From: Streptomyces sp. NBC_01353
GTDB lineage: Bacteria > Actinomycetota > Actinomycetes > Streptomycetales > Streptomycetaceae
DNA: 64,000 nt
Reading direction: 5' to 3'
NCBI RefSeq assembly: GCF_036237275.1
Contig: NZ_CP108352.1
Span: 6,076,001-6,140,000 of the forward strand
The position numbers and the translations under genes were made by a program. Within the stretch, counting starts at the first letter, position 1. The number at the start of each line of letters is the position of its first letter. The notes below the pieces were generated by a model. It had not been told where the DNA came from. It worked only from the letters and a program-made list of their open reading frames with translations, and made no database searches. This document shows positions 4,201-64,000 of the stretch, one piece after another.

Positions 4201-5211
4201 CTACGAGTTGAGCTCTGCGAGCAGCCGCAGTGTGGCGAGGTCGGGCGCCGTGACCAGCAGGTCCGTGACCGGCCCCTTCCGCCAGACCTCCAGCCGTTCG
4301 GCGATCCGTTCCCTGGGCCCGACGAGCGAGATCTCGTCCGCGAAGGCGTCCGGCACGGCGAGCACGGCCTCCTCGCGCCGCCCGGCCGCGAACAGCTCCT
4401 GGATGTGCCGGGCCTCGGACTCGTACCCCATGCGCGCCATCAGATCGGCGTGGAAGTTCCTGGCAGCGTGCCCCATGCCGCCGATGTAGAAGCCGAGCAT
4501 CGCCTTGACGGGCAGCAGCCCCTCGGTCCGGTCGTCGCAGAGCTGGGCACGGACCATGGGGGCGACGAGGAAGGACTCCGGGAGCCGGTCGGGGAGCGCG
4601 TAGACCTCCGCGTAACGGGTCGGCGACCAGTAGAGCGGCAGCCAGCCGTCGGCGATCCGGAGCGTCTGGGCGATGTTCTTGGGCCCCTCGGCGCCGAGCA
4701 GCACGGGCAGATCCGCGCGGAGGGGGTGGGTGATCGGCTTGAGGGCCTTCCCTAGCCCGGTGCCGTCCTCCCCGGCGTACGGATGGGAGTGGAACCGCCC
4801 GTCGAGCGCGACGGGCCCCTCGCGCCGCAGCACCTGGCGGATCACGTCCACGTACTCGCGGGTCGCGGTCAGTGGACTGCGCGGGAACGGCCGCCCGTAC
4901 CATCCCTCGACGACCTGCGGCCCGGACAGCCCGAGCCCGAGCTTCATCCGGCCGCCGGAGAGATGGTCGAGCGTGAGCGCGTGCATGGCGGTGGCGGTGG
5001 GCGTCCGGGCTGCCATCTGCGCGACGGCGGTCCCGAGTCCGATGCGCGAGGTGTGCGCGGCGATCCAGGTCAACGCGGTGAACGCGTCGGACCCCCAGGC
5101 CTCGGCGGTCCACACGGAGTCGTACCCGAGCCGCTCGGCCTCCCGGGCGAGTTCGAGGTGCGCGGGCGAGGGGCCGCGTCCCCAGTAGCCGAGGGCGAGT
5201 CCGAGACGCAT
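4201..5211 (-). CDS. LLM-class (luciferase-like) F420-dependent oxidoreductase
   Basis: A 336-residue protein of the bacterial luciferase-like monooxygenase fold. The N terminus MRLGLALGYWGRG is the first beta strand of the TIM barrel, followed by the family blocks DSVWTAEAW, IGLGTAVAQM, LDHLSGGR and GLGLSGPQVVEGWYG, and later PVLLGAEGPKNI and ADGWLP. Length is typical for deazaflavin (F420)-using members; the substrate cannot be read from sequence. AGGAAGG lies about 9 nt before the ATG. A 15-bp palindrome (5226-5240), identical in layout to palindromes before two acyl-CoA operons in this window, overlaps the leader, so it may belong to the same regulon. An F420:NADPH oxidoreductase is encoded at 59287. 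Confidence 0.85.
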   Translation of the reverse strand: MRLGLALGYWGRGPSPAHLELAREAERLGYDSVWTAEAWGSDAFTALTWIAAHTSRIGLGTAVAQMAARTPTATAMHALTLDHLSGGRMKLGLGLSGPQVVEGWYGRPFPRSPLTATREYVDVIRQVLRREGPVALDGRFHSHPYAGEDGTGLGKALKPITHPLRADLPVLLGAEGPKNIAQTLRIADGWLPLYWSPTRYAEVYALPDRLPESFLVAPMVRAQLCDDRTEGLLPVKAMLGFYIGGMGHAARNFHADLMARMGYESEARHIQELFAAGRREEAVLAVPDAFADEISLVGPRERIAERLEVWRKGPVTDLLVTAPDLATLRLLAELNS

Positions 5212-5225
5212 GGCAGGACGCCTTC

Positions 5226-5240
5226 CTGACGGTCTGTCAG
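5226..5240. promoter_or_regulatory. CTGAC-N5-GTCAG palindrome, candidate repressor site
   Basis: CTGACGGTCTGTCAG lies 15-29 bp upstream of the F420 oxidoreductase start, downstream of a possible -10 element (TAGAGT on the minus strand). A bound TetR-type repressor here would block transcription. The same arms occur at 15384 and 22690. Confidence 0.55.
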
Positions 5241-15383: not shown

Positions 15384-15398
15384 CTGACCTTCCGTCAG
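15384..15398. promoter_or_regulatory. CTGAC-N5-GTCAG palindrome before acyl-CoA operon
   Basis: CTGACCTTCCGTCAG lies around the -35 region of the acyl-CoA dehydrogenase promoter, only 3 bp upstream of a KstR-like box. Same arms as at 5226 and 22690. Confidence 0.6.
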
Positions 15399-15400
15399 AA

Positions 15401-15414
15401 TGGAACGTGTTCTA
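15401..15414. promoter_or_regulatory. KstR-like operator
   Basis: TGGAACGTGTTCTA fits the known KstR pattern TnnAACnnGTTnnA at every fixed position. It lies between the presumed -35 and -10 elements. KstR is the TetR-type repressor of sterol catabolism genes in mycobacteria and rhodococci. Its gene is not in this window. Confidence 0.7.
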
Positions 15415-15418
15415 GTCT
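15413..15418 (+). promoter_or_regulatory. Putative -10 element of a leaderless promoter
   Basis: TAGTCT is followed by 7 nt and then ATG 15426. No ribosome site precedes the ATG, which fits transcription starting at or next to the start codon. Confidence 0.5.
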
Positions 15419-15425
15419 GCCGCGC

Positions 15426-17588
15426 ATGGGCATCGGAATCACGCAAGAGCAGCGGGAGTTGGCCCGGTCCGTGCGCGGCTGGCTCGGTCGGGCCGTACCG
15501 CCCGAGGATGTGCGCAAGCTCCTCGACGCGCCGGCCGACAGCGTCACCGGACGCCCCGCCCACTGGGACGGGCTCGCCGCGCAGGGGCTCCTCGGGATCC
15601 ATCTGCCCGAGGAGTACGGGGGAGGGGGCGGCGATCTCGTCGATCTGGCCGTCGTGCTCGAGGAGGCCGCGAGGGCGCTGCTCCCGGGGCCGTATCTGCC
15701 CTCCGTCCTCGCCGGCGAGGTCCTGGCCCGGGCCGGGCAGCGGGAGCTGACCGCCGCCCTCGCCGCCGGGGAGCGCATCGGGGCCGTCACCCTCGCGCAC
15801 GGCGGAATGACCGCTGTCGAGACCGAGGGCGGGCTGCTCCTCGACGGGGCCGCGCCACCCGTCCTCGGCGGCTCCCAGGCCGATGTGCTGATCCTCGCCG
15901 CGAGCACCGCGCGCGGCACGGTCTGGGCCGCCGTGGACGCCGACACCCTCGCCGTACGCCCGCACCGGAGCGCCGACCCCACCCGGCCCACCGCCGAGGT
16001 CACCGCGGCCGGGGCACTCGTGCCCGCGCACCGGATCCTGGACGTCGACCCGGCCCTCGTCACGGATCTCGCGGCCGTGCTGTACGCCGCCGACGCCTGC
16101 GGGAACGCCGCCCGGGCGCTGGAGACGGCCGCGGAGTACGCCAAGGTGCGCGAGCAGTTCGGGCGGCCCATCGGGCAGTTCCAGGGGGTCAAGCACCTCT
16201 GCGCCGACATGCTCGTACGGGTCGAGCAGGCCCGCGCCCTCACCTGGGACGCGGCCCGGTCCACCGAGGACGCGTCACGCTCCCTGACCGCAGCGCTCGC
16301 CGCCGCCACCGCCCTCGACGCCGCCTACGACTGCGCCAAGGACTGCATCCAGATCCTCGGCGGCATCGGCTTCACCTGGGAGCACGACGCCCATCTCTCC
16401 CTGCGCCGAGCCCTCGTCGCACGCCAGCTCCTCGGCCCCGGCGACACCCACCGCGCGCACGCCGTCCGGCTCGCCGCCCAGGGGACCCGCCGCGAACTCC
16501 GGCTCGAACTGCCGCCCGAGGCCGACGCGTTCCGCGCCGAGGCGCGCGCGGCGATCGCCCACGCCGCAGGCCTCGACCCGGGCGCCGCCCGCCGCGCGCT
16601 TGCCGACACCGGCCATGCCGCCCCGCACCTGCCGCCGCCGTACGGCCTGGGCGCGGGACCGCTCCAGCAGCTCGCCGTACAGCGGGAGCTGGACGCGGCC
16701 GGCGTCAAGCTCAGCGGGCTCGGGATCGCGACCTGGGTCGTTCCCTCCCTCCTCGCGTACGGGACGGCGGAGCAGCGGGAGCGCCACCTCGGCCCGACCC
16801 TGCGGGGCGAGCTGCTGTGGTGCCAGCTCTTCTCCGAACCCGGCGCCGGGTCCGATCTCGCCTCGCTGCGCACCAGGGCGGAACGCACCGAGGACGGCCG
16901 CTGGCGGATCAACGGGCAGAAGGTGTGGACGAGCGCCGCCCAGTGGGCCGACCACGGCATCCTGCTCGCCCGGACCGACCCGGACGCCCCCAAACACCAG
17001 GGGCTCACGTACTTCCTCGTCGACATGAGGAACACGCCGGGGATCGACATCCGGCCGCTGAAGGAGATCACCGGCGACTCGCTCTTCAACGAGGTGTACT
17101 TCGACGACGTCCTGCTGCCGGCCGACGCCGTCGTCGGCGAGGTGAACGACGGCTGGAAGGTCGCCCGCAACACCCTCGGCAACGAACGCGTCCACATGGC
17201 CGACCAGGTCGCCTTCGACTCCGGCCTGGAGGCGCTGATCGACCTGGCGGCGGACGCCGACAGCGCCGTACGGGGACGGATCGGGGCGCTCGCCGCCGAG
17301 GCGCACGCGCTCGCCTGCATCGGGTTGCGGACCACGATGCTCCAGGTCTCCGGCCTGGAACCGGGCGCGGGTGCGTCCGTCCGCAAGCTCGTCCAGACCG
17401 TCCACCAGCAGAAGGTCGCCGAGCTCACGCTCGAACTGCTCGGCCCCGAGGGAGCGGTACGGGAAGGCGCGGGGGAGCGGGCCGTCCACGGCCTGCTGAT
17501 GTCCCGCTGCCTGACCATCGCGGGCGGCACCACGCAGGTCCAGCTCAATGTCGTCGCCGAGCGCCTGCTCGGCCTGCCGAGAGACTGA
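15426..17588 (+). CDS. Single-chain double acyl-CoA dehydrogenase (FadE34/ChsE3-like)
   Basis: A 720-residue protein holding two acyl-CoA dehydrogenase halves in one chain. The N-half (about 1-360) has the C-terminal helical blocks [12 protein letters not shown] and [18 protein letters not shown]. The C-half (about 370-720) has the FAD/substrate blocks [16 protein letters not shown] and INGQKVWTS and the closing block [19 protein letters not shown]. Most acyl-CoA dehydrogenases have one half; actinobacterial steroid side-chain enzymes act as alpha2beta2 pairs, and FadE34 fuses both. It should desaturate a bulky acyl-CoA using FAD. The KstR-like box just upstream supports sterol-type substrates. 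The gene starts leaderless and runs into a thiolase gene 13 bp later. Confidence 0.85.
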
Positions 17589-17601
17589 GGGGGAACCGAA
17601 G

Positions 17602-18795
17602 ATGGGGAAGGCGTACATCGTCGGCGTCGGGATGACGAAGTTCGAGAAGCCCGAGACGCGCGACTGGCAGTACTGGGACATGGCGCGCGAGGCGGGGACG
17701 GCGGCGCTCGCCGACGCCGGGATCTCGTACGCGCAGGTGGAGCAGGTGCCCGTCGGCTACTGCTTCCAGGCGTCGACGGCCGGGCAGCGCGCCGCGTACG
17801 AACTCGGCCTGACCGGCGTTCCCGTCTACAACGTCAACAACAACTGCGCGACGGCGTCCACGGCGCTGATGATGGCCCGGCAGTTCGTGGAGGGCGGGAT
17901 CTCCGACTGCGTCCTCGCCCTCGGCTTCGAGAAGATGGCGCGCGGGGCGCTGGGCGGGGGCTCGGACGGCGGAGACTTCAAGACCTCGCCGGTCGCGCGG
18001 CACTACGGGATCATGGCCGCCGCCCACGGCTTCGAGATGTCCCCGCCGACCGCGCAGATCTTCGGGAACGCGGCCCGGGAACACATGGAGCGGTACGGGA
18101 CGACGGAGGTCCAGCTCGCCGCCGTCGGCGCCAAGAACCACCGGCACTCGGCGAACAACCCCAACGCCCAGTTCCAGGACGTGTACTCGGTCGAGGAGAT
18201 CCTCGCGGCGAAGACGATCCACCGGCCGCTGACCAAACTGCAGTGCTCGCCGACCTCGGACGGCTCCGCGGCGGCGGTCGTGGTGTCGGAACGGTTCGTC
18301 GTCGAACACGGGCTGCACGACAAGGCCGTCGAGATCGCGGCGCAGGCCATGACGACCGACACCGGGGAGTCCTTCGACTCGGGATCGTGCATCGACGCGG
18401 TGGGCCGGCCGATGTCCCGCGCCGCCGCCCGGCAGGTGTACGAGCGCTCCGGCCTCGGCATCGAGGACGTGGACGTCGTGGAACTGCACGACTGCTTCTC
18501 CATCAACGAGCTCCTGACCTACGAGGCCCTCGGCATGTGCGAGGAGGGCGCGTCCGGCAAGCTCGTCGAGTCGGGCGCGACCACGTACGGCGGGCGATGG
18601 GTGGTGAACCCTTCGGGCGGGCTGATCTCGAAGGGCCACCCCCTGGGCGCCACCGGTCTGGCCCAGGCCGCCGAACTGGTCTGGCAGCTACGGGGCGAGG
18701 CCGGCGCCCGCCAGGTCGAGGGCGCCCGCGTCGGCCTCGCGCACAACATCGGGCTCGGCGGCGCGGCGGTCGTGACCATGCTTCGGAGGTCGTAG
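17602..18795 (+). CDS. SCP2-type thiolase / lipid-transfer protein
   Basis: A 397-residue thiolase-fold protein of the SCP-x/lipid-transfer group. The nucleophile is in VNNNCATAS near residue 87, the C-terminal catalytic His in [15 protein letters not shown], and the family block [15 protein letters not shown] is present. These enzymes cleave 3-ketoacyl-CoA, often from sterol side chains or branched acids. It has a good ribosome site (GAGGGGGA) and lies 13 bp after the double acyl-CoA dehydrogenase gene, so both form an operon under the KstR-like box. With the hydratase and dehydrogenases at 22898-25808 it would complete a beta-oxidation round. All key thiolase residues that I can identify are present. 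Confidence 0.9.
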
Positions 18796-22689: not shown

Positions 22690-22704
22690 CTGACGTACCG
22701 TCAG
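22690..22704. promoter_or_regulatory. CTGAC-N5-GTCAG palindrome upstream of MaoC operon
   Basis: CTGACGTACCGTCAG lies 194 bp before the MaoC start and about 40 bp upstream of a TATACAT-like -10 element. It has the same arms as the sites at 5226 and 15384. Confidence 0.55.
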
Positions 22705-22765: not shown

Positions 22766-22781
22766 CTAGAACGCGTTCTAG
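22766..22781. promoter_or_regulatory. Perfect palindromic KstR-like operator
   Basis: CTAGAACGCGTTCTAG is a perfect 16-bp palindrome that contains TnnAACnnGTTnnA. A further AGAAC half site follows directly (22780-22784). It lies shortly downstream of a possible -10 element, so it would act as a repressor site. Confidence 0.7.
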
Positions 22782-22897: not shown

Positions 22898-23761
22898 ATG
22901 CCCATTGACGCCGCCAAGGCCGTGGCCGCCGAGCCCCGCAGCGCCGAGATCGCCTGGGACCACAAGGACATCCAGCTCTACCACCTCGGACTCGGCGCCG
23001 GCATCCCCGCCACCGACCCCGACGAGCTCCGCTACACCCTCGAATCCCGGCTGCACGTCCTGCCCAGCTTCGCCACCGTCGCCGGCGCCGGCATGGGAGT
23101 CGTCGGCGGGCTCTCCGCGCCCGGCATCGACATCAACCTCGCCGCCGTCCTGCACGGCGGCCAGACGATCACCCTCCACCGGCCCATCCCCGTCAAGGGC
23201 AGGGCCGTCACCACCTCCCGCGTCGCCGCCGTCCACGACAAGGGCAAGGCCGCCGTCCTCGTCCTGCGCTCCGAGGTCGCCGACGACGACGGCCCGCTGT
23301 GGACCAGCGACGCCCAGATCTTCGTGCGGGGAGAGGGCGGCTGGGGCGGCGACCGAGGGCCCTCCGAGCGCCTCGAACTCCCCGGCCGCGAGCCCGACAA
23401 GACCGTCGAGCGGGCCATCCGCCCGGACCAGGCCCTGCTCTACCGGCTCTCCGGCGACTGGAACCCGCTCCACGCCGACCCCGAGTTCGCCGAGCTCGCC
23501 GGCTTCGACCGGCCGATCCTCCACGGACTCTGCACGTACGGCATGACCCTCAAGGCGGTGGTGGACACGGTGCTCGGCGGAGACGTCGCCCGCGTCCGGT
23601 CCTACCGCACCCGTTTCGCCGGGATCGTCTTCCCCGGCGAGACCCTGCGTATCCGGATCTGGCAGGACTCTCCCGAGCCCGGCCGCGTCCAGGTGTCGGT
23701 CACGGCGGTCGAGCGCGACGACGCTCCGGTGCTCGCCGACACCCTCGTCGAGTATTCGTGA
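22898..23761 (+). CDS. MaoC-family enoyl-CoA hydratase (Hsd4B/ChsH3-like)
   Basis: A 287-residue double hot-dog protein. The N half holds LHVLPSFATVAG. The C half carries the hydratase motif: YRLSGDWNPLHADPEFAELAGF and then RPILHGLCTYG, with the catalytic Asp and His in GDWNPLHADP. This layout matches MFE-2-type and Hsd4B hydratases that add water to 2-enoyl-CoA with bulky chains. AAGGAG lies 10 nt before ATG 22898. It is the first gene of a three-gene operon behind a KstR-like box. It would hydrate the product of the double acyl-CoA dehydrogenase, the SDR at 24867 being the likely next step. Confidence 0.9.
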   Translation: MPIDAAKAVAAEPRSAEIAWDHKDIQLYHLGLGAGIPATDPDELRYTLESRLHVLPSFATVAGAGMGVVGGLSAPGIDINLAAVLHGGQTITLHRPIPVKGRAVTTSRVAAVHDKGKAAVLVLRSEVADDDGPLWTSDAQIFVRGEGGWGGDRGPSERLELPGREPDKTVERAIRPDQALLYRLSGDWNPLHADPEFAELAGFDRPILHGLCTYGMTLKAVVDTVLGGDVARVRSYRTRFAGIVFPGETLRIRIWQDSPEPGRVQVSVTAVERDDAPVLADTLVEYS

Positions 23762-24866: not shown

Positions 24867-25808
24867 ATGTCACTCCCCCTTGAGGGTCTGTCCGCGATCG
24901 TCACGGGCGCCGGCCGGGGTCTCGGCCGGGCCGAGGCGCTGGAACTCGCCCGGCTGGGCGCGTCCGTCGTCGTCAACGACTACGGACAGGCCGGGCGGGA
25001 CGGCTCCGGCGAGGCGTCGGCCGCGCCCGCCGAGGAGGTCGCGGCGGAGATCCGCGCGGCGGGCGGCCGGGCGGTGGCGCACCTGGGCGACGTCGCCGAC
25101 TTCGAGACCGCGCGGGGCCTTGTCGACCTGGCGGTCGGCGAGTTCGGCAAGCTGGACATCCTGGTCAACAACGCGGGCATTCTGCGGGACCGGATGGTCT
25201 TCTCGATGAGCGAGGAGGAGTGGGACTCGGTGATCCGGGTCCACCTCAAGGGGCACTTCAACACCACGCACTTCGCGGCGGTGCACTGGCGGGGGAGGGC
25301 GAAGGCGGGGGAGTCCGGCGTGTACGGCCGGATCGTCAACACCTCGTCGGAGGCCTTCCTCGCGGGCTCCGCCGGGCAGCCGAACTACGCGGCGGCCAAG
25401 GGCGGGATCGTGGGTCTTACGACGTCGACGGCGCTGGCTCTGGCGAAGTACGGCGTCACGGCGAACGCGATCTGCCCGCGAGCGCGCACTCGTATGACGG
25501 AGGACGTCTTCGCGGGCTTCGCGGAGCCGACGGCGGGGGAGCTGGACGCGCTCGCGCCGGAGCATGTGGCCCCGCTGGTCGGCTACCTGGCCTCGCCGGC
25601 GGCGGCGTCGGTCAACGGCCAGCTGCTGGTGGTCCACGGCGGGATGGTCGCGATCGTGGACCGCCCGAGGGTGACGGCCAAGTTCGACACGTCGAAGGAC
25701 GCGTTCACGTACGAGGAACTGGATGGACTGCTGTCCCCGCACTACGCGGGCCGCCCGCCGGGCGAGACGTTCGCGGCGGCGGAGGTCCTGGGCCTGAAGA
25801 AGGGGTGA
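24867..25808 (+). CDS. Short-chain dehydrogenase (Hsd4A/FabG-like)
   Basis: A 313-residue SDR. The cofactor motif is [11 protein letters not shown] near residue 12, the stability motif LVNNAGILRD, and the catalytic Ser, Tyr and Lys are in NTSSEAF and PNYAAAKGG. The insert after ALGRA (VVNDYGQAGRDGSG) and the tail of about 50 residues after the fold are typical of MFE-type 3-hydroxyacyl-CoA dehydrogenases. It should turn 3-hydroxyacyl-CoA into 3-ketoacyl-CoA, the substrate of the thiolase at 17602. It is the last gene of the operon, 14 bp after the alcohol dehydrogenase, and a hairpin follows it. Confidence 0.9.
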   Translation: MSLPLEGLSAIVTGAGRGLGRAEALELARLGASVVVNDYGQAGRDGSGEASAAPAEEVAAEIRAAGGRAVAHLGDVADFETARGLVDLAVGEFGKLDILVNNAGILRDRMVFSMSEEEWDSVIRVHLKGHFNTTHFAAVHWRGRAKAGESGVYGRIVNTSSEAFLAGSAGQPNYAAAKGGIVGLTTSTALALAKYGVTANAICPRARTRMTEDVFAGFAEPTAGELDALAPEHVAPLVGYLASPAAASVNGQLLVVHGGMVAIVDRPRVTAKFDTSKDAFTYEELDGLLSPHYAGRPPGETFAAAEVLGLKKG

Positions 25809-26115: not shown

Positions 26116-27231
26116 CTAACCAGCGGCTTTACGGTCGGCGAGCGGTGCCTGCTGGAGTGGGACCGGGCGGCAGACCCGCGGCTCCACGGTGACCTCGACC
26201 CGCGCCGGTTCCGGGTCCGGCGGGACCTCCAGGCCGGCGAGTCCGCAGGGCGTCCCCTCCGTCGTGTACGGAAGCCGCAGCACGCCCTCCGCGGTCCAGA
26301 GCCCCGACCCGGCCAGCCACCCCGCCGGGACCGCCAGTTGGTGCATCCGGCGATCCGTCGGGCGCCACATTCCGACCCAGCTCCCCGCCGCCGCGTCGAT
26401 CCGCAGCGCGACCGAGCAGGTCTCCGGCAGCAGCACCTGCCCCGGCTGCACCGCGAACGGGGTGACCGCCGCGTCGTCCAGCCGCAGGCATTCGGGGAAA
26501 CGAATCGGCAGCAGACTGCCGAGGACGCCCCAGCCGAGCCGCTCGTGCCCCGGTGACGGAGCGTCCGAGCGGATCAGCAGCAGCCCGCTGTCCGGGTCGG
26601 CCATCAGCAGCCGGTCGTCGCTCTCCTCGGTGATCTGGAGCAGCGGCGTCACCTCCCCGCCCCGCTCCAGGTCGACCGCCACCGCCTTGACCGGGCCGTC
26701 GTCCAGCCGTCGGTCGAGGGCGAGCATCCGTCCCGTACGGTCCAGCCAGACCCCGCCCGTGCAGCGGCCCTTGACCTCGGCGACCTGCTCGGGCCCGAAC
26801 GCCCCGCCCGCCACCAGCCAGATCGTGGTGGTGTCCGCCCCGACGCACATCGCGTACGCGCAGATGCCGTCGGGCGAGGGCGGCAGCAGGGTGAGGTCCG
26901 CGGACTCGACGGCCCCCAGGGACAGTTCTCCCGTCCCCGGTCCCGTCGGGTACAGCAGCGAGAACGTGTGGCGGTCGCCGTCCACCCGGCGTCCGGTCAG
27001 CACCCGTCCGTCCGCCAGCGGCAGCAGCTGCGTGTGGCGCTCCTCGGGCTGGTCGAGCGGAAGGGGTACGGCGTACGGCTCCGGCCCGTCCAGGGTCCAA
27101 CGCTCCGCGTACAGGGCGTCCCCCGTACCGGCGAGCCGCGCCGCGTACGCCCCGTTCGCCGTGATCGTGAACCGCGACGGCCACACCGCGCCGCCGCCCC
27201 CCGCCGCCGTCTCGATGGCACAGGCTGTCAT
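26116..27231 (-). CDS. Hypothetical protein with beta-propeller-like repeats
   Basis: A 371-residue protein. The start ATG 27231 is chosen for the strong GGAGGTGA 7 nt upstream. It has no signal peptide or membrane helix. The sequence is rich in short beta-strand blocks with regularly spaced W/G/D residues (for example DALYAERWTLDG, TTIWLVAGGAFGPE, GGVWLDRTGRMLALD), which suggests a beta-propeller. I recognise no catalytic motif. It is divergent from the siderophore-binding lipoprotein gene, whose iron box lies 145 bp away, so iron control is possible but not shown. Confidence 0.7.
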   Translation of the reverse strand: MTACAIETAAGGGGAVWPSRFTITANGAYAARLAGTGDALYAERWTLDGPEPYAVPLPLDQPEERHTQLLPLADGRVLTGRRVDGDRHTFSLLYPTGPGTGELSLGAVESADLTLLPPSPDGICAYAMCVGADTTTIWLVAGGAFGPEQVAEVKGRCTGGVWLDRTGRMLALDRRLDDGPVKAVAVDLERGGEVTPLLQITEESDDRLLMADPDSGLLLIRSDAPSPGHERLGWGVLGSLLPIRFPECLRLDDAAVTPFAVQPGQVLLPETCSVALRIDAAAGSWVGMWRPTDRRMHQLAVPAGWLAGSGLWTAEGVLRLPYTTEGTPCGLAGLEVPPDPEPARVEVTVEPRVCRPVPLQQAPLADRKAAG

Positions 27232-27375
27232 CGTCTCGTCACCTCCGGCCACCGAAGCTAGTTTTCGCACTTCCTGCCGAACAACACGAGCCCGGTCACT
27301 TCACACATAAGGGTGGCCATGAATCGATTCTGCTGAGGGGAGGGGGGTGGTTGTGCTGGAGAGAGCGGTGGGGCA

Positions 27376-31793: not shown

Positions 31794-32621
31794 ATGAGCT
31801 GGCACATCACCGACGACGTCGACGCCTTCCGCGCTGCGGCCCACGAGCACTTCGCCGCCGATCCCGCGCGGAACACCGTGCTGCTCACCCTCAGCGAGGG
31901 CGCCCGGCGGCGGCCCGTCGAGTCCGCGCGGTACGGCTGGTGGACCGAGGCGGACGGCCGGGTGACCGGTGCCTTCCTGTTCACGCTGCCCCACGAGCCG
32001 GCGCTCGGACCGATGCCCGCGGCGGCGGCCCGCGCCCTCGTCCACGCACTGCCGGACGCGGCCGAGGTGACCGGCGTGCGCGGCGAGGAGGAGACGGCGG
32101 AGGTCTTCGCCCGGGAGCTGTGCGGCGGGGACCGCGCGTGGACGACCACGCGCCGGATGCGGCTCTACCGGCTCGGCACGCTCACCCCGCCGGATCCCGC
32201 GCCGCCGGGACGGCCGCGGACGGCGGCCGCCGCCGACATTCCGCTCGCCGTGTCATGGATGCGTGACTTCGCCCGGGACATCGGGGAGGACGCCGACGTC
32301 GACCACACCCCGAACATCGAGCCCCGTGTCGCCGAAGGCCGCCTCCACTTCTGGGAGACCGGCGAGGGCCCGGTGTCGATGGCGAGCATCTCGCCGATCG
32401 TGGCGGGCCAGGCCCGGGTCTCACCGGTGTACACACCGGCCGAGCTCCGCGGTCGCGGCTACGCGGGAGCCGTCACCGGTGCGGTCAGCCGGGCCGCCCT
32501 GGACGCGGGCGCGGAGCAGGTCCTGCTCTTCACGGACCTCGCCAACCCCACCAGCAACGCCTTGTACCAGCGGCTCGGGTACCGCCCCGTGACCGACCAC
32601 GTCGGCCTGACGCTCTCCTGA
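31794..32621 (+). CDS. GNAT-family N-acetyltransferase
   Basis: A 275-residue protein. The C-terminal 130 residues are a GNAT domain with the acetyl-CoA binding loop RGRGYAGAV and the usual ending ALYQRLGYRPVTDH. The N-terminal 130 residues are a second, degenerate GNAT-like half (FLFTLPHEPAL), as in two-domain acetyltransferases. The substrate is not predictable. It stands alone, follows a terminator and converges on the KDPG aldolase gene; both stop codons fall within a short CTGAC-N5-GTCAG sequence. Confidence 0.85.
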   Translation: MSWHITDDVDAFRAAAHEHFAADPARNTVLLTLSEGARRRPVESARYGWWTEADGRVTGAFLFTLPHEPALGPMPAAAARALVHALPDAAEVTGVRGEEETAEVFARELCGGDRAWTTTRRMRLYRLGTLTPPDPAPPGRPRTAAAADIPLAVSWMRDFARDIGEDADVDHTPNIEPRVAEGRLHFWETGEGPVSMASISPIVAGQARVSPVYTPAELRGRGYAGAVTGAVSRAALDAGAEQVLLFTDLANPTSNALYQRLGYRPVTDHVGLTLS

Positions 32622-32632
32622 CGGTCGGTCAG
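32618..32632. promoter_or_regulatory. CTGAC-N5-GTCAG palindrome at convergent stops
   Basis: CTGACGGTCGGTCAG carries the same arms as the three operators upstream of genes, but here it covers the stop codons of two convergent genes (TGA and its reverse). It may be chance or act in termination rather than promoter control. Confidence 0.3.
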
Positions 32633-61141: not shown

Positions 61142-64000
61142 GTGCTCTATTCCGTCCTCGGCCCTACCCAGGTCCACACCGTCCACGGCACCCCCGTCGC
61201 TCTCGGCGGGGCCAGGCTGCGGGCGCTGCTGACCGTACTGGCCCTGCGTGCCGGGCGGATCGTGCCGGTCGGCGTCCTCGTCGACGAGGTGTGGGACGGT
61301 GCCCCGCCCGCCGACGGCGCCGCGGCGCTCCAGGCCCTGGTGGGCCGGTTGCGGCGGGCGCTCGGGCGGGAGGCCGTGGAGTCGTCCCCGGGCGGCTACC
61401 GGCTGGCGGCCGGGCCCGAGGACGTGGACGCGCACCGCTTCGAGCGGCTGGCGGGGGAGGGCGTACGGGCGTTCGGTGCGGGCGACCCGGTGCGGGCGGC
61501 TGAGCTGCTCGACGAGGCGCTCGGTCTGTGGCGCGGGCCCGCGCTCGCCGACCTGCCGGACCGCACGGCGGAGGCCGCCCGCTGGGAGGCCCGCCGCCTC
61601 GACGCCCGCCGGGCTCGCCTCGACGCCGCCCTCGCGCTGGGCGAGGGCGCATCGGTCCTCCCCGAACTGGCCGCGCTCTGCGAGGCCCACCCGCTCGACG
61701 AACCCCTCCAGGCCCTGCGCATCCGCGCCCTCCGAGACACGGGCCGCGCGGCGGAGGCCCTCGCCGCGTACGAGTCCTTCCGCCGCGACCTGGCGAACCG
61801 CCTGGGCACGGACCCGTCCCCGTCCCTGCGCGCGCTCCACGCGGAGCTGCTGTCGCCGACGCCGGAGGCCCGGACGGCACGCCCGGGGCAGGGGCCGTAC
61901 GCCGACGGGGTACGCGACGGGGTACGGGGCGCTGCCCGCGAAGCCGTCACGCCGGACCGGGGCGGCATCACCCCGCGGCAGGAATCACCTGCACCCGGCG
62001 AGGCGCAGGACACGACCAGTGGTCCCGCCGGGCCCGCGGGGCGGGGCGGATCCGGGGCCGCGGTGGCCCCGGCGGCCCATCCGGGCGGTCCGGCCCCGGC
62101 GCCGCAGTCCCCGGCCACGGGGCGCGCGGCCGAGCCCCTGACCCCGGGCGGTTCCCAGGACGCCGCAGGCCCTGCGGCGGGGACTCTGCCTCCGGGTGGT
62201 TCCCAGGACGCCGCAGGCCGCGCGGCGGGGAGGCTGGACGAGGGCGGCCCCCGCCGCGGCGCGGAGCCCCTCGCGGGTCACGCGTACCGCGCGGTCTCAC
62301 CACCCCGCCCCGGCAATCTCCGTGCGCGGCTCACCAGTTTCGTCGGGCGCGGGCAGGACATCGCGCAGCTCCGGGACGACCTGTACGGCAGTCGGCTCGT
62401 CACCCTTCTCGGGCCCGGCGGGGCCGGGAAGACGCGGCTCTCTCAGGAGGGGGCCGAGCATGCCGCCGACGGCGGGGCGTGGCCGGACGGGGTCTGGCTC
62501 GCCGAACTCGCGCCCGTGACCGACCCCGAGGCCGTCACCGAGGCCGTGCTCGGCGCCGTCGGGGCGCGCGAGACCGTGCTGCGCGGCGCGGGCGCCGAAG
62601 AGCTGCGCGGCACCGACACCCCGCTCGGGCGCCTCGTCGAACACTGCGCCTCGCGCCGGCTCCTGCTGATCCTGGACAACTGCGAACACGTGGTGGACGC
62701 GGCCGCGGCCCTCGCGGAGTCGCTCCTCGCCCGGTGCCCGGGCGTGACGGTTCTCGCCACGAGCCGCGAACCGCTCGGCGTCCCGGGGGAGTTCCTGCGT
62801 CCCGTGGAGCCGCTGCCGCCCGAGAGCGCGCTGCGTCTGCTCGGGGAGCGCGGGGCCGCGGCCCGGCCCGGTTTCGACCCCGACGACGACCCCGAGGCGT
62901 GTGACGAGATCTGCCGACGCCTCGACGGCCTCCCGCTCGCGATCGAGCTGGCTGCGGCGCGGCTGCGGCTGCTGACCCCACGTCAGATCGCCGACCGCCT
63001 CGACGACCGCTTCCATCTCCTCACCTCGGGAGCCCGTACCGTCCTGCCCCGGCAGCAGACCCTCCGCGCGGTGGTCGACTGGTCCTGGGATCTGCTCGAC
63101 GCGCCCGAACGGGCCGTCCTGCGCCGGCTGTCCGCGTTCACGGGCGGCTGCGACCTGGAGGCGGCGGAGGCGGTCTGCACGGAACCCGTCCGTCCGACCG
63201 CGGAGGCCCACGAGACCGCCCCGCGCGCGGACACCCTCGACGTGCTCGGGTCGCTCGTCGACAAGTCGCTGGTCGTCGCCACGCCCGCCGACGACGGGAC
63301 GATGCGCTACCGCCTCCTGGAGACCGTCGCCGAGTACGCCGGCGAGCGCCTCGACGAGGCGGGGGAGCGGGCGGAGATCGAGCGGCGCCATCTCGTCCAC
63401 TACCGCGAACTCGCCCGCCTCACCGACCCCGAACTCCGCGGCGGCGGCCAGCTCCGCGCCATGACCTGGTTCCGCACCGAGTACGAGAACCTGCGCACCG
63501 CCCTGCGCCACGCCGTCGCCGAACGCGACGAGCACGAGGCGCTCATGCTCGTCCACTGCCTGCTCTGGTACTGGCAGCTGCGCGATCTGCGCGCCGACGC
63601 CCTGCACTGGGCCGAGGCCGCCGCCGCCCTCGGGCCCGACCCCTTCGCGCCGCCGGCCGCCCCCGTCGTACCGCTCCACAAACCCTGCACCGCCGCGGCG
63701 CCTCCGCTGAGCGAGGAGCAGCTGTGGGAGGCCCGGCGCGGGGTTCGGCTGATCGAGCTGCTCAACATGGACTACCAGACGGGCCGGTGGACCACCCCCG
63801 AGGGTGGGGAGCGGCTGCGCCGCATCGTCGCCGTCTACCGGCCGGGGCTGCCGCAGATGTGCCGGCTTCCCGGCTCCTTCGCCATCTTCGCCGTCCTCCT
63901 CGTCGGGGCGGCGGACGAGATGCGGGACGTCCTCGACGCCACCGTCGAGTCGTGCCGTGCCTTCGGGTACGACTGGGAGCTCGCCAACGCCCTCCAGACG
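61142..64000 (+). CDS. AfsR-like regulator (SARP/BTAD plus NB-ARC ATPase), 3' end outside window
   Basis: The frame stays open to the right edge, so the protein is partial (at least 953 residues). Residues 1-95 form an OmpR-type DNA-binding winged helix (LRALLTVLALRAGRIVPVGV, VEDEVW-like block as LVDEVWDGAPP). Residues 95-245 form the BTAD domain. A Pro/Gly/Ala-rich linker (about 245-390) follows, then an NB-ARC-type ATPase with Walker A LLGPGGAGKTRL near 420 and Walker B LLLILDNCEHV near 507. Helical repeat parts come after. Such regulators bind direct repeats upstream of secondary-metabolite genes. Start GTG 61142 may be leaderless. Confidence 0.9.
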   Translation, partial: MLYSVLGPTQVHTVHGTPVALGGARLRALLTVLALRAGRIVPVGVLVDEVWDGAPPADGAAALQALVGRLRRALGREAVESSPGGYRLAAGPEDVDAHRFERLAGEGVRAFGAGDPVRAAELLDEALGLWRGPALADLPDRTAEAARWEARRLDARRARLDAALALGEGASVLPELAALCEAHPLDEPLQALRIRALRDTGRAAEALAAYESFRRDLANRLGTDPSPSLRALHAELLSPTPEARTARPGQGPYADGVRDGVRGAAREAVTPDRGGITPRQESPAPGEAQDTTSGPAGPAGRGGSGAAVAPAAHPGGPAPAPQSPATGRAAEPLTPGGSQDAAGPAAGTLPPGGSQDAAGRAAGRLDEGGPRRGAEPLAGHAYRAVSPPRPGNLRARLTSFVGRGQDIAQLRDDLYGSRLVTLLGPGGAGKTRLSQEGAEHAADGGAWPDGVWLAELAPVTDPEAVTEAVLGAVGARETVLRGAGAEELRGTDTPLGRLVEHCASRRLLLILDNCEHVVDAAAALAESLLARCPGVTVLATSREPLGVPGEFLRPVEPLPPESALRLLGERGAAARPGFDPDDDPEACDEICRRLDGLPLAIELAAARLRLLTPRQIADRLDDRFHLLTSGARTVLPRQQTLRAVVDWSWDLLDAPERAVLRRLSAFTGGCDLEAAEAVCTEPVRPTAEAHETAPRADTLDVLGSLVDKSLVVATPADDGTMRYRLLETVAEYAGERLDEAGERAEIERRHLVHYRELARLTDPELRGGGQLRAMTWFRTEYENLRTALRHAVAERDEHEALMLVHCLLWYWQLRDLRADALHWAEAAAALGPDPFAPPAAPVVPLHKPCTAAAPPLSEEQLWEARRGVRLIELLNMDYQTGRWTTPEGGERLRRIVAVYRPGLPQMCRLPGSFAIFAVLLVGAADEMRDVLDATVESCRAFGYDWELANALQT
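62144..62231. repeat. 48-bp in-frame duplication in the AfsR-like linker
   Basis: A 39-bp segment beginning CCGGG(C/T)GGTTCCCAGGA and coding for PGGSQDAAG is present at 62144-62182 and 62192-62231 with few differences. The period of 48 bp keeps the frame. Confidence 0.65.

Follow-up and report, generated by a model that had tools for sequence, protein, structure and literature searches.

The promoter of a gene for a fused double acyl-CoA dehydrogenase in Streptomyces sp. NBC_01353 carries two distinct operator-like palindromes, one around a putative -35 and one over the start of the -10, and is probably leaderless. We consider it reasonably likely that this is a stacked two-operator promoter at which a KstR-like repressor and a TetR-type repressor encoded beside afsK would both act, and at which two lipid-catabolism regulons would meet. 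Coordinates refer to the window, the whole stretch of 64,000 nucleotides analysed, unless preceded by C1 or by the handle of a locus. The features of the promoter and its operon are:

15384..15398, strand., operator A, the palindrome CTGACCTTCCGTCAG (CTGAC-CTTCC-GTCAG), a member of the CTGACN5GTCAG family whose arms bracket the putative -35
15389..15393, + strand, CTTCC, spacer of operator A and proposed -35 core, 17-18 bp 5' of the -10
15401..15414, strand., operator B, the KstR box TGGAACGTGTTCTA, overlapping the -10 (motif as given in the available part of PMC1995591)
15413..15418, + strand, -10 hexamer TAGTCT (TANNNT), its TA common to the end of the KstR-box palindrome
15426..17588, + strand, FadE34-like fused double acyl-CoA dehydrogenase of 720 aa, probably leaderless (Pfam and structure matches)
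17548..18795, + strand, lipid-transfer/thiolase-like protein of the PRK08256 subfamily (626 bits, cut-off 436)

The layout given in the original prediction, with CTGACCTTCCGTCAG, TGGAACGTGTTCTA, TAGTCT and the ATG, proved exact, the start codon being read directly from the window at 15426-15428. Neither palindrome is due to chance, as judged from shuffles of the window and from reversed-pattern counts across the whole genome. For the KstR pattern, 0.02 occurrences are expected in the window and two are seen, a number reached by none of 100 shuffles; CTGACCTTCCGTCAG with up to two mismatches occurs three times against 0.27 expected. Operator B conforms to the TnnAACnnGTTnnA palindrome of KstR operators and overlaps the -10, TANNNT starting at box position 13 in 29/29 orthologous promoters. 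An RNA hairpin was considered for CTGACCTTCCGTCAG and rejected, since the palindrome sits upstream of the -10.

The arrangement recurs widely in the genus. A combined 31-bp pattern, comprising both boxes and the 2-bp gap, was found in 51 of 199 genomes including the present one, and its reversed counterpart in none. Among the matches listed, an orthologue of the dehydrogenase at about 65% identity or more is present in at least 66 of the 199 genomes, and 49 of these have both boxes exactly 2 bp apart; G036 and G048 have both boxes, yet the orthologue is not among the matches listed for them. In the best 30 orthologous loci the gap is 2 bp in 23, 13 bp in two and 19 bp in two, while two have the KstR box alone and one the CTGAC box alone. 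The KstR box is thus kept in 29/30 promoters, with 13 of its 14 bases invariant across the 29. CTTCC starts 12 bp 5' of the box in 29/29, including promoters in which operator A is missing or displaced, and the end of the box carries TANNNT in 29/29. We infer that CTTCC and TANNNT are the -35 and -10 elements, 17-18 bp apart, so that in the gap-2 promoters the CTGAC palindrome would bracket the -35 and the KstR box would cover the start of the -10. Both boxes are present in 16 of the 18 named Streptomyces loci with at least 67% identity; L040 retains only the KstR box, and L047 that box together with a CTGAC box containing one mismatch. Three Streptomyces loci of about 50% identity (L062, L073, L092) have neither box, and among the 39 of 80 loci examined, those from outside Streptomyces had neither pattern as an exact match within 110 bp upstream.

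That the promoter is leaderless, as originally proposed, is probable here and fits the 19 of the 29 promoters in which an ATG in frame follows the beginning of the KstR box by 24-26 bp; it does not hold for the other ten, whose conserved start lies further downstream and which are consequently not leaderless from this -10. The ribosome site noted as missing is indeed missing, for in all 29 the 16 bases preceding the ATG expected for a leaderless transcript are free of GGAG, GAGG, AGGA and GGGA; in the ten promoters with a downstream start this stretch covers only part of the leader.

Pfam confirms the predicted double acyl-CoA dehydrogenase, with two fused units in one chain. The protein has 105 matches among solved structures, which include Tcur3481 and Tcur3483, a steroid pair, in separate halves, although other acyl-CoA dehydrogenases score higher. 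Its closest named relatives are from Streptomyces (18 loci, 67-79% identity over the dehydrogenase). Among 80 loci of relatives, 16, all from outside Streptomyces, have the gene divergent from a KstR homologue and within 600 bp of it, and in the present genome the two genes are 25 kb apart; the name FadE34-like was chosen for lack of this neighbour, and dehydrogenation of steroid side-chain acyl-CoA is a putative activity. The thiolase-like gene likely belongs to the same operon, and its true start is probably downstream of 17548, since the family match begins at residue 20.

The candidate for binding operator B is encoded outside the window:

C1:6065257-6065931 (L036:2187-2861), KstR-like repressor gene, 25 kb from the dehydrogenase gene

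Its product matches the solved KstR over the full length (6.6e-39), with near-identical recognition regions (VALGTLYRYFPSK in the KstR-like protein, VAVGTLYRYFPSK in KstR). It is called KstR-like because it scored 197.8 bits against the equivalog model NCBIfam NF033703, under the cut-off of 280. The promoter region of the gene itself contains a KstR box, TGAAACTTGTTCTA, at C1:6066071 (140 bp upstream of the predicted start), and a box lies beside the kstR-like gene in five relatives (L047, L049, L051, L053, L055), in three of which (L049, L053, L055) the gene is 7.7-9.0 kb from the dehydrogenase. Genome-wide, TNNAACNNGTTNNA has 36 places and its reversed counterpart 10, so some of these places are chance matches; boxes of the T(A/G)GAAC type lie near acyl-CoA dehydrogenase genes at C1:4467344 and C1:7866030. 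Two repressors on one promoter, as originally suggested, thus has in its favour the two distinct palindromes and this repressor gene, as well as the position of the dehydrogenase beside kstR in other actinobacteria. For the KstR half the biology was already known, the genus being what is new, and SCO2319 of S. coelicolor had been put forward in 2007 as a possible orthologue of KstR (PMC1995591, available part).

The sterol substrate proposed at the outset is weak. KshA_C (PF19298; 3-ketosteroid 9-alpha-hydroxylase) had no match in the genome, against a weak control in which 1 of 14 control genomes matched, below the cut-off; the KshA expected for 9,10-seco steroid degradation was thus not found, under that same weak control. 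A neighbour resembling cholesterol oxidase scored 86 against a family cut-off of 850. Together with the missing KshA_C match, this score makes a full sterol pathway unlikely. In the available part of PMC4810484, 55 of 57 Streptomyces genomes are reported to be without a steroid pathway. Growth on sterols is therefore doubtful, and a partial side-chain breakdown, or breakdown of other cyclic acyl-CoAs, is more plausible than a full pathway.

The CTGAC palindrome belongs to a separate set of promoters, larger than the KstR one. CTGACN5GTCAG occurs at 41 places in the genome against two for the reversed pattern, and the stricter CTGACNNNCCGTCAG at 19 distinct places (21 strand hits) against none. 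With starts taken from our own gene-caller predictions and an upstream limit of 200 bp, 26 of the 41 places lie upstream of a predicted start, six in genes and nine elsewhere, so that 15 are not upstream of a predicted start; one site classed as elsewhere, at window position 22690, belongs to a gene that begins just past the limit. For CTGACNNNCCGTCAG, 16 of the 19 places are upstream. Acyl-CoA or steroid-type genes stand behind 12 of the 26 upstream sites. Among these a FadD3-type ligase, a lipid-transfer thiolase and an Rv3520c-type F420 oxidoreductase exceed curated cut-offs, an HsaB-like protein (flavin reductase) and a CasI/FadD1-like protein (ligase) fall below them, and the rest are the present FadE34-like dehydrogenase, further ligases, an acyl-CoA dehydrogenase and enoyl-CoA hydratases. 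Four further sites precede a DoxX/monooxygenase pair, an amidohydrolase, an SDR and a ferredoxin reductase, and ten precede genes of other or untested kinds. Members of the set in the window, and a second promoter with both boxes, are:

4201..5211, - strand, LLM class F420-dependent oxidoreductase, TIGR03559 F420_Rv3520c (434.8 bits, cut-off 335)
5226..5240, strand., operator A copy CTGACGGTCTGTCAG, 5' of the gene for that oxidoreductase
22690..22704, strand., operator A copy CTGACGTACCGTCAG of the second dual promoter
22767..22780, strand., operator B copy (KstR box) TAGAACGCGTTCTA of the second dual promoter
22898..23761, + strand, MFE-2-type MaoC hydratase, leading gene of the operon behind the second dual promoter

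The boxes of the second dual promoter are 77 bp apart, start to start, and the MaoC hydratase gene is followed by a zinc alcohol dehydrogenase and an SDR (24867-25808). The relatives' hydratase gene has both boxes in 8 of 21 loci examined, at 63-68 bp. Further along the window, a 384-aa ORF on the minus strand (26119-27270) gave no Pfam or NCBIfam match at E 0.001. Elsewhere, at L156:5033-5089, with an acyl-CoA ligase on one side and an enoyl-CoA hydratase on the other, CTGACTGAGTGTCAG is followed 43 bp later by the KstR-like TGCAACCTGTTCCA, which makes this a possible third dual promoter.

The afsK-linked gene stands out as the candidate for the regulator of this set:

C1:4985245-4985892, TetR gene adjoining afsK, SCO4421 orthologue by synteny

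AfsK and AfsR of this genome both exceed curated cut-offs (AfsK with 1522.9 bits against 1300), and the assignment of the TetR gene to SCO4421 follows from its place next to afsK, the S. coelicolor gene SCO4421 being close to afsK too (PMC3878966). According to the available part of the same source, SCO4421 is expressed at a lower level in a whiA mutant, its promoter is active in spores, and its deletion in S. coelicolor gave no overt phenotype, the function being described as unclear. The start region of the present gene, TAAGCTGACGGCATGACAG, looks like a leaderless promoter, and an operator with one mismatch spans the ATG. The site CTGACGGCATGACAG or a close variant lies over the start in 30/30 close orthologues, and a site of this type is found there in 19 of the 20 most divergent orthologues of a 101-genome sample and, among 24 genomes chosen from 13 genera because their site counts were low or high, in 23; each of the two exceptions carries one additional base in the spacer. 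The longer stretch ATGACAGGACAAGT is nearly invariant at the TetR start, wobble positions included, across 13 genera (L160-L189, L190-L209, L216-L239), and since this conservation runs beyond the operator, other constraints act there as well. In two genomes of one other genus (G300, G246) the TetR gene lies within clusters of about 43 and 46 kb that contain 11 CTGACN5GTCAG sites each; the corresponding parts lie apart in the present genome, at about 3.80 and 4.99-5.02 Mb. Two TetR homologues of 53% identity from another family, which are those with loci among 23 out-of-genus matches, both carry CTGACGCCCCGTCGG at 22 bp upstream of the predicted start, with a perfect CTGACCAAGCGTCAG in addition in one of them. 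The gene was found in 24/24 family genomes tested, including one without CTGACNNNCCGTCAG sites, so its presence does not track site number. Among the upstream regions of 107 of 118 TetR genes, three sites with at most one mismatch were found, the candidate's included, against about two expected by chance from the whole-genome rate of such sites. On balance, we regard the afsK-linked TetR protein as a likely binder of CTGACN5GTCAG.

How the two palindromes are to be read can be weighed against several alternatives. It is unlikely, though less so than the readings that follow, that both palindromes are operators and CTGACN5GTCAG is bound by another protein, namely an unlinked TetR or GntR regulator or an AraC/DJ-1-type regulator whose gene stands beside the HsaB-like gene. 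Such an AraC-type gene does lie near the HsaB-like gene in the present genome, and ORFs similar by eye are found at the corresponding place in G300 and G246; the afsK-linked TetR gene persists where the sites are almost absent, and the frequency of one-mismatch sites near TetR genes is close to that expected by chance. Against this, a 15-bp perfect dyad suits a TetR dimer better than an AraC-type protein, the TetR candidate is the one regulator among those examined that both lies in the cluster and has a conserved site across the start of its gene, and the two TetR homologues of another family have upstream sites. The AraC/DJ-1-type genes were seen near the HsaB-like gene in three genomes (L038:16247-17218, L212:12351-13325, L215:13002-14093), the assignment being by Pfam for L038 and by visual likeness of the ORFs for L212 and L215.

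Two further readings do away with one of the operators. The KstR box might be a relic, or might serve non-steroid acyl-CoAs, with the CTGAC regulator alone of importance in the genus. The absent KshA_C match, the score of the KstR-like protein under the curated cut-off and the one promoter of 30 without a KstR box are compatible with this; we regard it as improbable, however, given a box retained by 29 of 30 promoters with 13 of 14 bases invariant and placed next to the kstR-like gene in the five relatives named above. A plain -35 was rejected as an explanation of the other palindrome, since the arms shift while the CTTCC core stays. The related idea that CTGACCTTCCGTCAG is an extended -35 of the core promoter, with incidental symmetry and no operator, could account for a centre that is invariant in 29/29 promoters at 17-18 bp from the -10, but not for arms that shift by 11 or 17 bp or vanish around a fixed CTTCC and that recur before 26 predicted starts with other spacers, and we judge it very improbable.

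On the reading with two stacked operators, the KstR-like repressor would bind TGGAACGTGTTCTA and cover the -10, and a second dimeric repressor, most likely the TetR protein encoded beside afsK, would bind CTGACN5GTCAG with its arms flanking CTTCC, the likely -35. RNA polymerase would gain access only once both repressors have left, an AND-type logic under which the FadE34-like dehydrogenase and its thiolase partner would be produced upon the joint presence of a KstR ligand and a second signal. The CTGAC operator probably governs about 20 other promoters, many of them for acyl-CoA, F420 and side-chain-type catabolism, and probably the TetR gene as well. A broader proposal, that the SCO4421 family is an autoregulated master repressor of an acyl-CoA/cyclic-lipid CTGACN5GTCAG regulon across Streptomycetaceae, gating KstR targets via stacked -35/-10 operators, is tentative, with a chance we would put slightly below even. 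If true, it would tie lipid or sterol-like catabolism to development, since SCO4421 is reported to be whiA-dependent and switched on in spores (PMC3878966, available part). SCO4421 is so far reported as sporulation-induced in that source, whose available part gives it neither an operator nor a regulon, and to its orthologue by synteny we can now add a proposed operator and proposed targets.

The work adds to the original prediction the CTGAC promoter set, a candidate second regulator and the second dual promoter (22690/22767). In mycobacteria, two TetR-type repressors, KstR and KstR2, divide the cholesterol-catabolism genes between them, KstR2 having a different motif and largely separate targets, whereas here individual promoters carry both the CTGAC palindrome and the KstR box. 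The KstR2 regulon is mentioned in PMC4810484 (available part). In the mycobacterial kstR-fadE34 arrangement (Rv3574/Rv3573c), the same 14-bp box overlaps part of the -10 with a related double dehydrogenase downstream, and the KstR homologue adjoins the gene (PMC1995591, available part), as it also does in other actinobacteria among the loci described above. Unlike that arrangement, the present one has a second, unrelated operator at the -35, a kstR-like gene 25 kb away and a probably leaderless transcript. In the open-licence literature we found no earlier account of a CTGAC-type operator, of the CTGAC set, of its candidate regulator as such, of stacked -35/-10 operators or of a Streptomyces FadE34/KstR study; accounts may exist in print elsewhere. 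This single promoter yields a map, open to testing, of two lipid-catabolism regulons that overlap in antibiotic producers, supplies a conserved TetR protein that has no assigned function with a proposed operator and a list of targets, and provides a natural case of two operators on the -35 and -10 of one probably leaderless promoter. It also raises the question of what use KstR has in Streptomyces when KshA is not found.

Some occurrences of the CTGAC palindrome were left out of the count of operators. The site CTGACGGTCGGTCAG at window positions 32618-32632 lies at an ORF end, away from predicted starts, and might be a terminator or a chance site, and the sites at window position 62972 and at C1:6834278 both lie inside ORFs. 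In genomes of the genus group g14 (e.g. G269, G341), CTGACNNNCCGTCAG reaches up to 276 strand hits each and its reversed form almost none, an abundance that far exceeds the size of a regulon and may represent a repeat or hairpin family.
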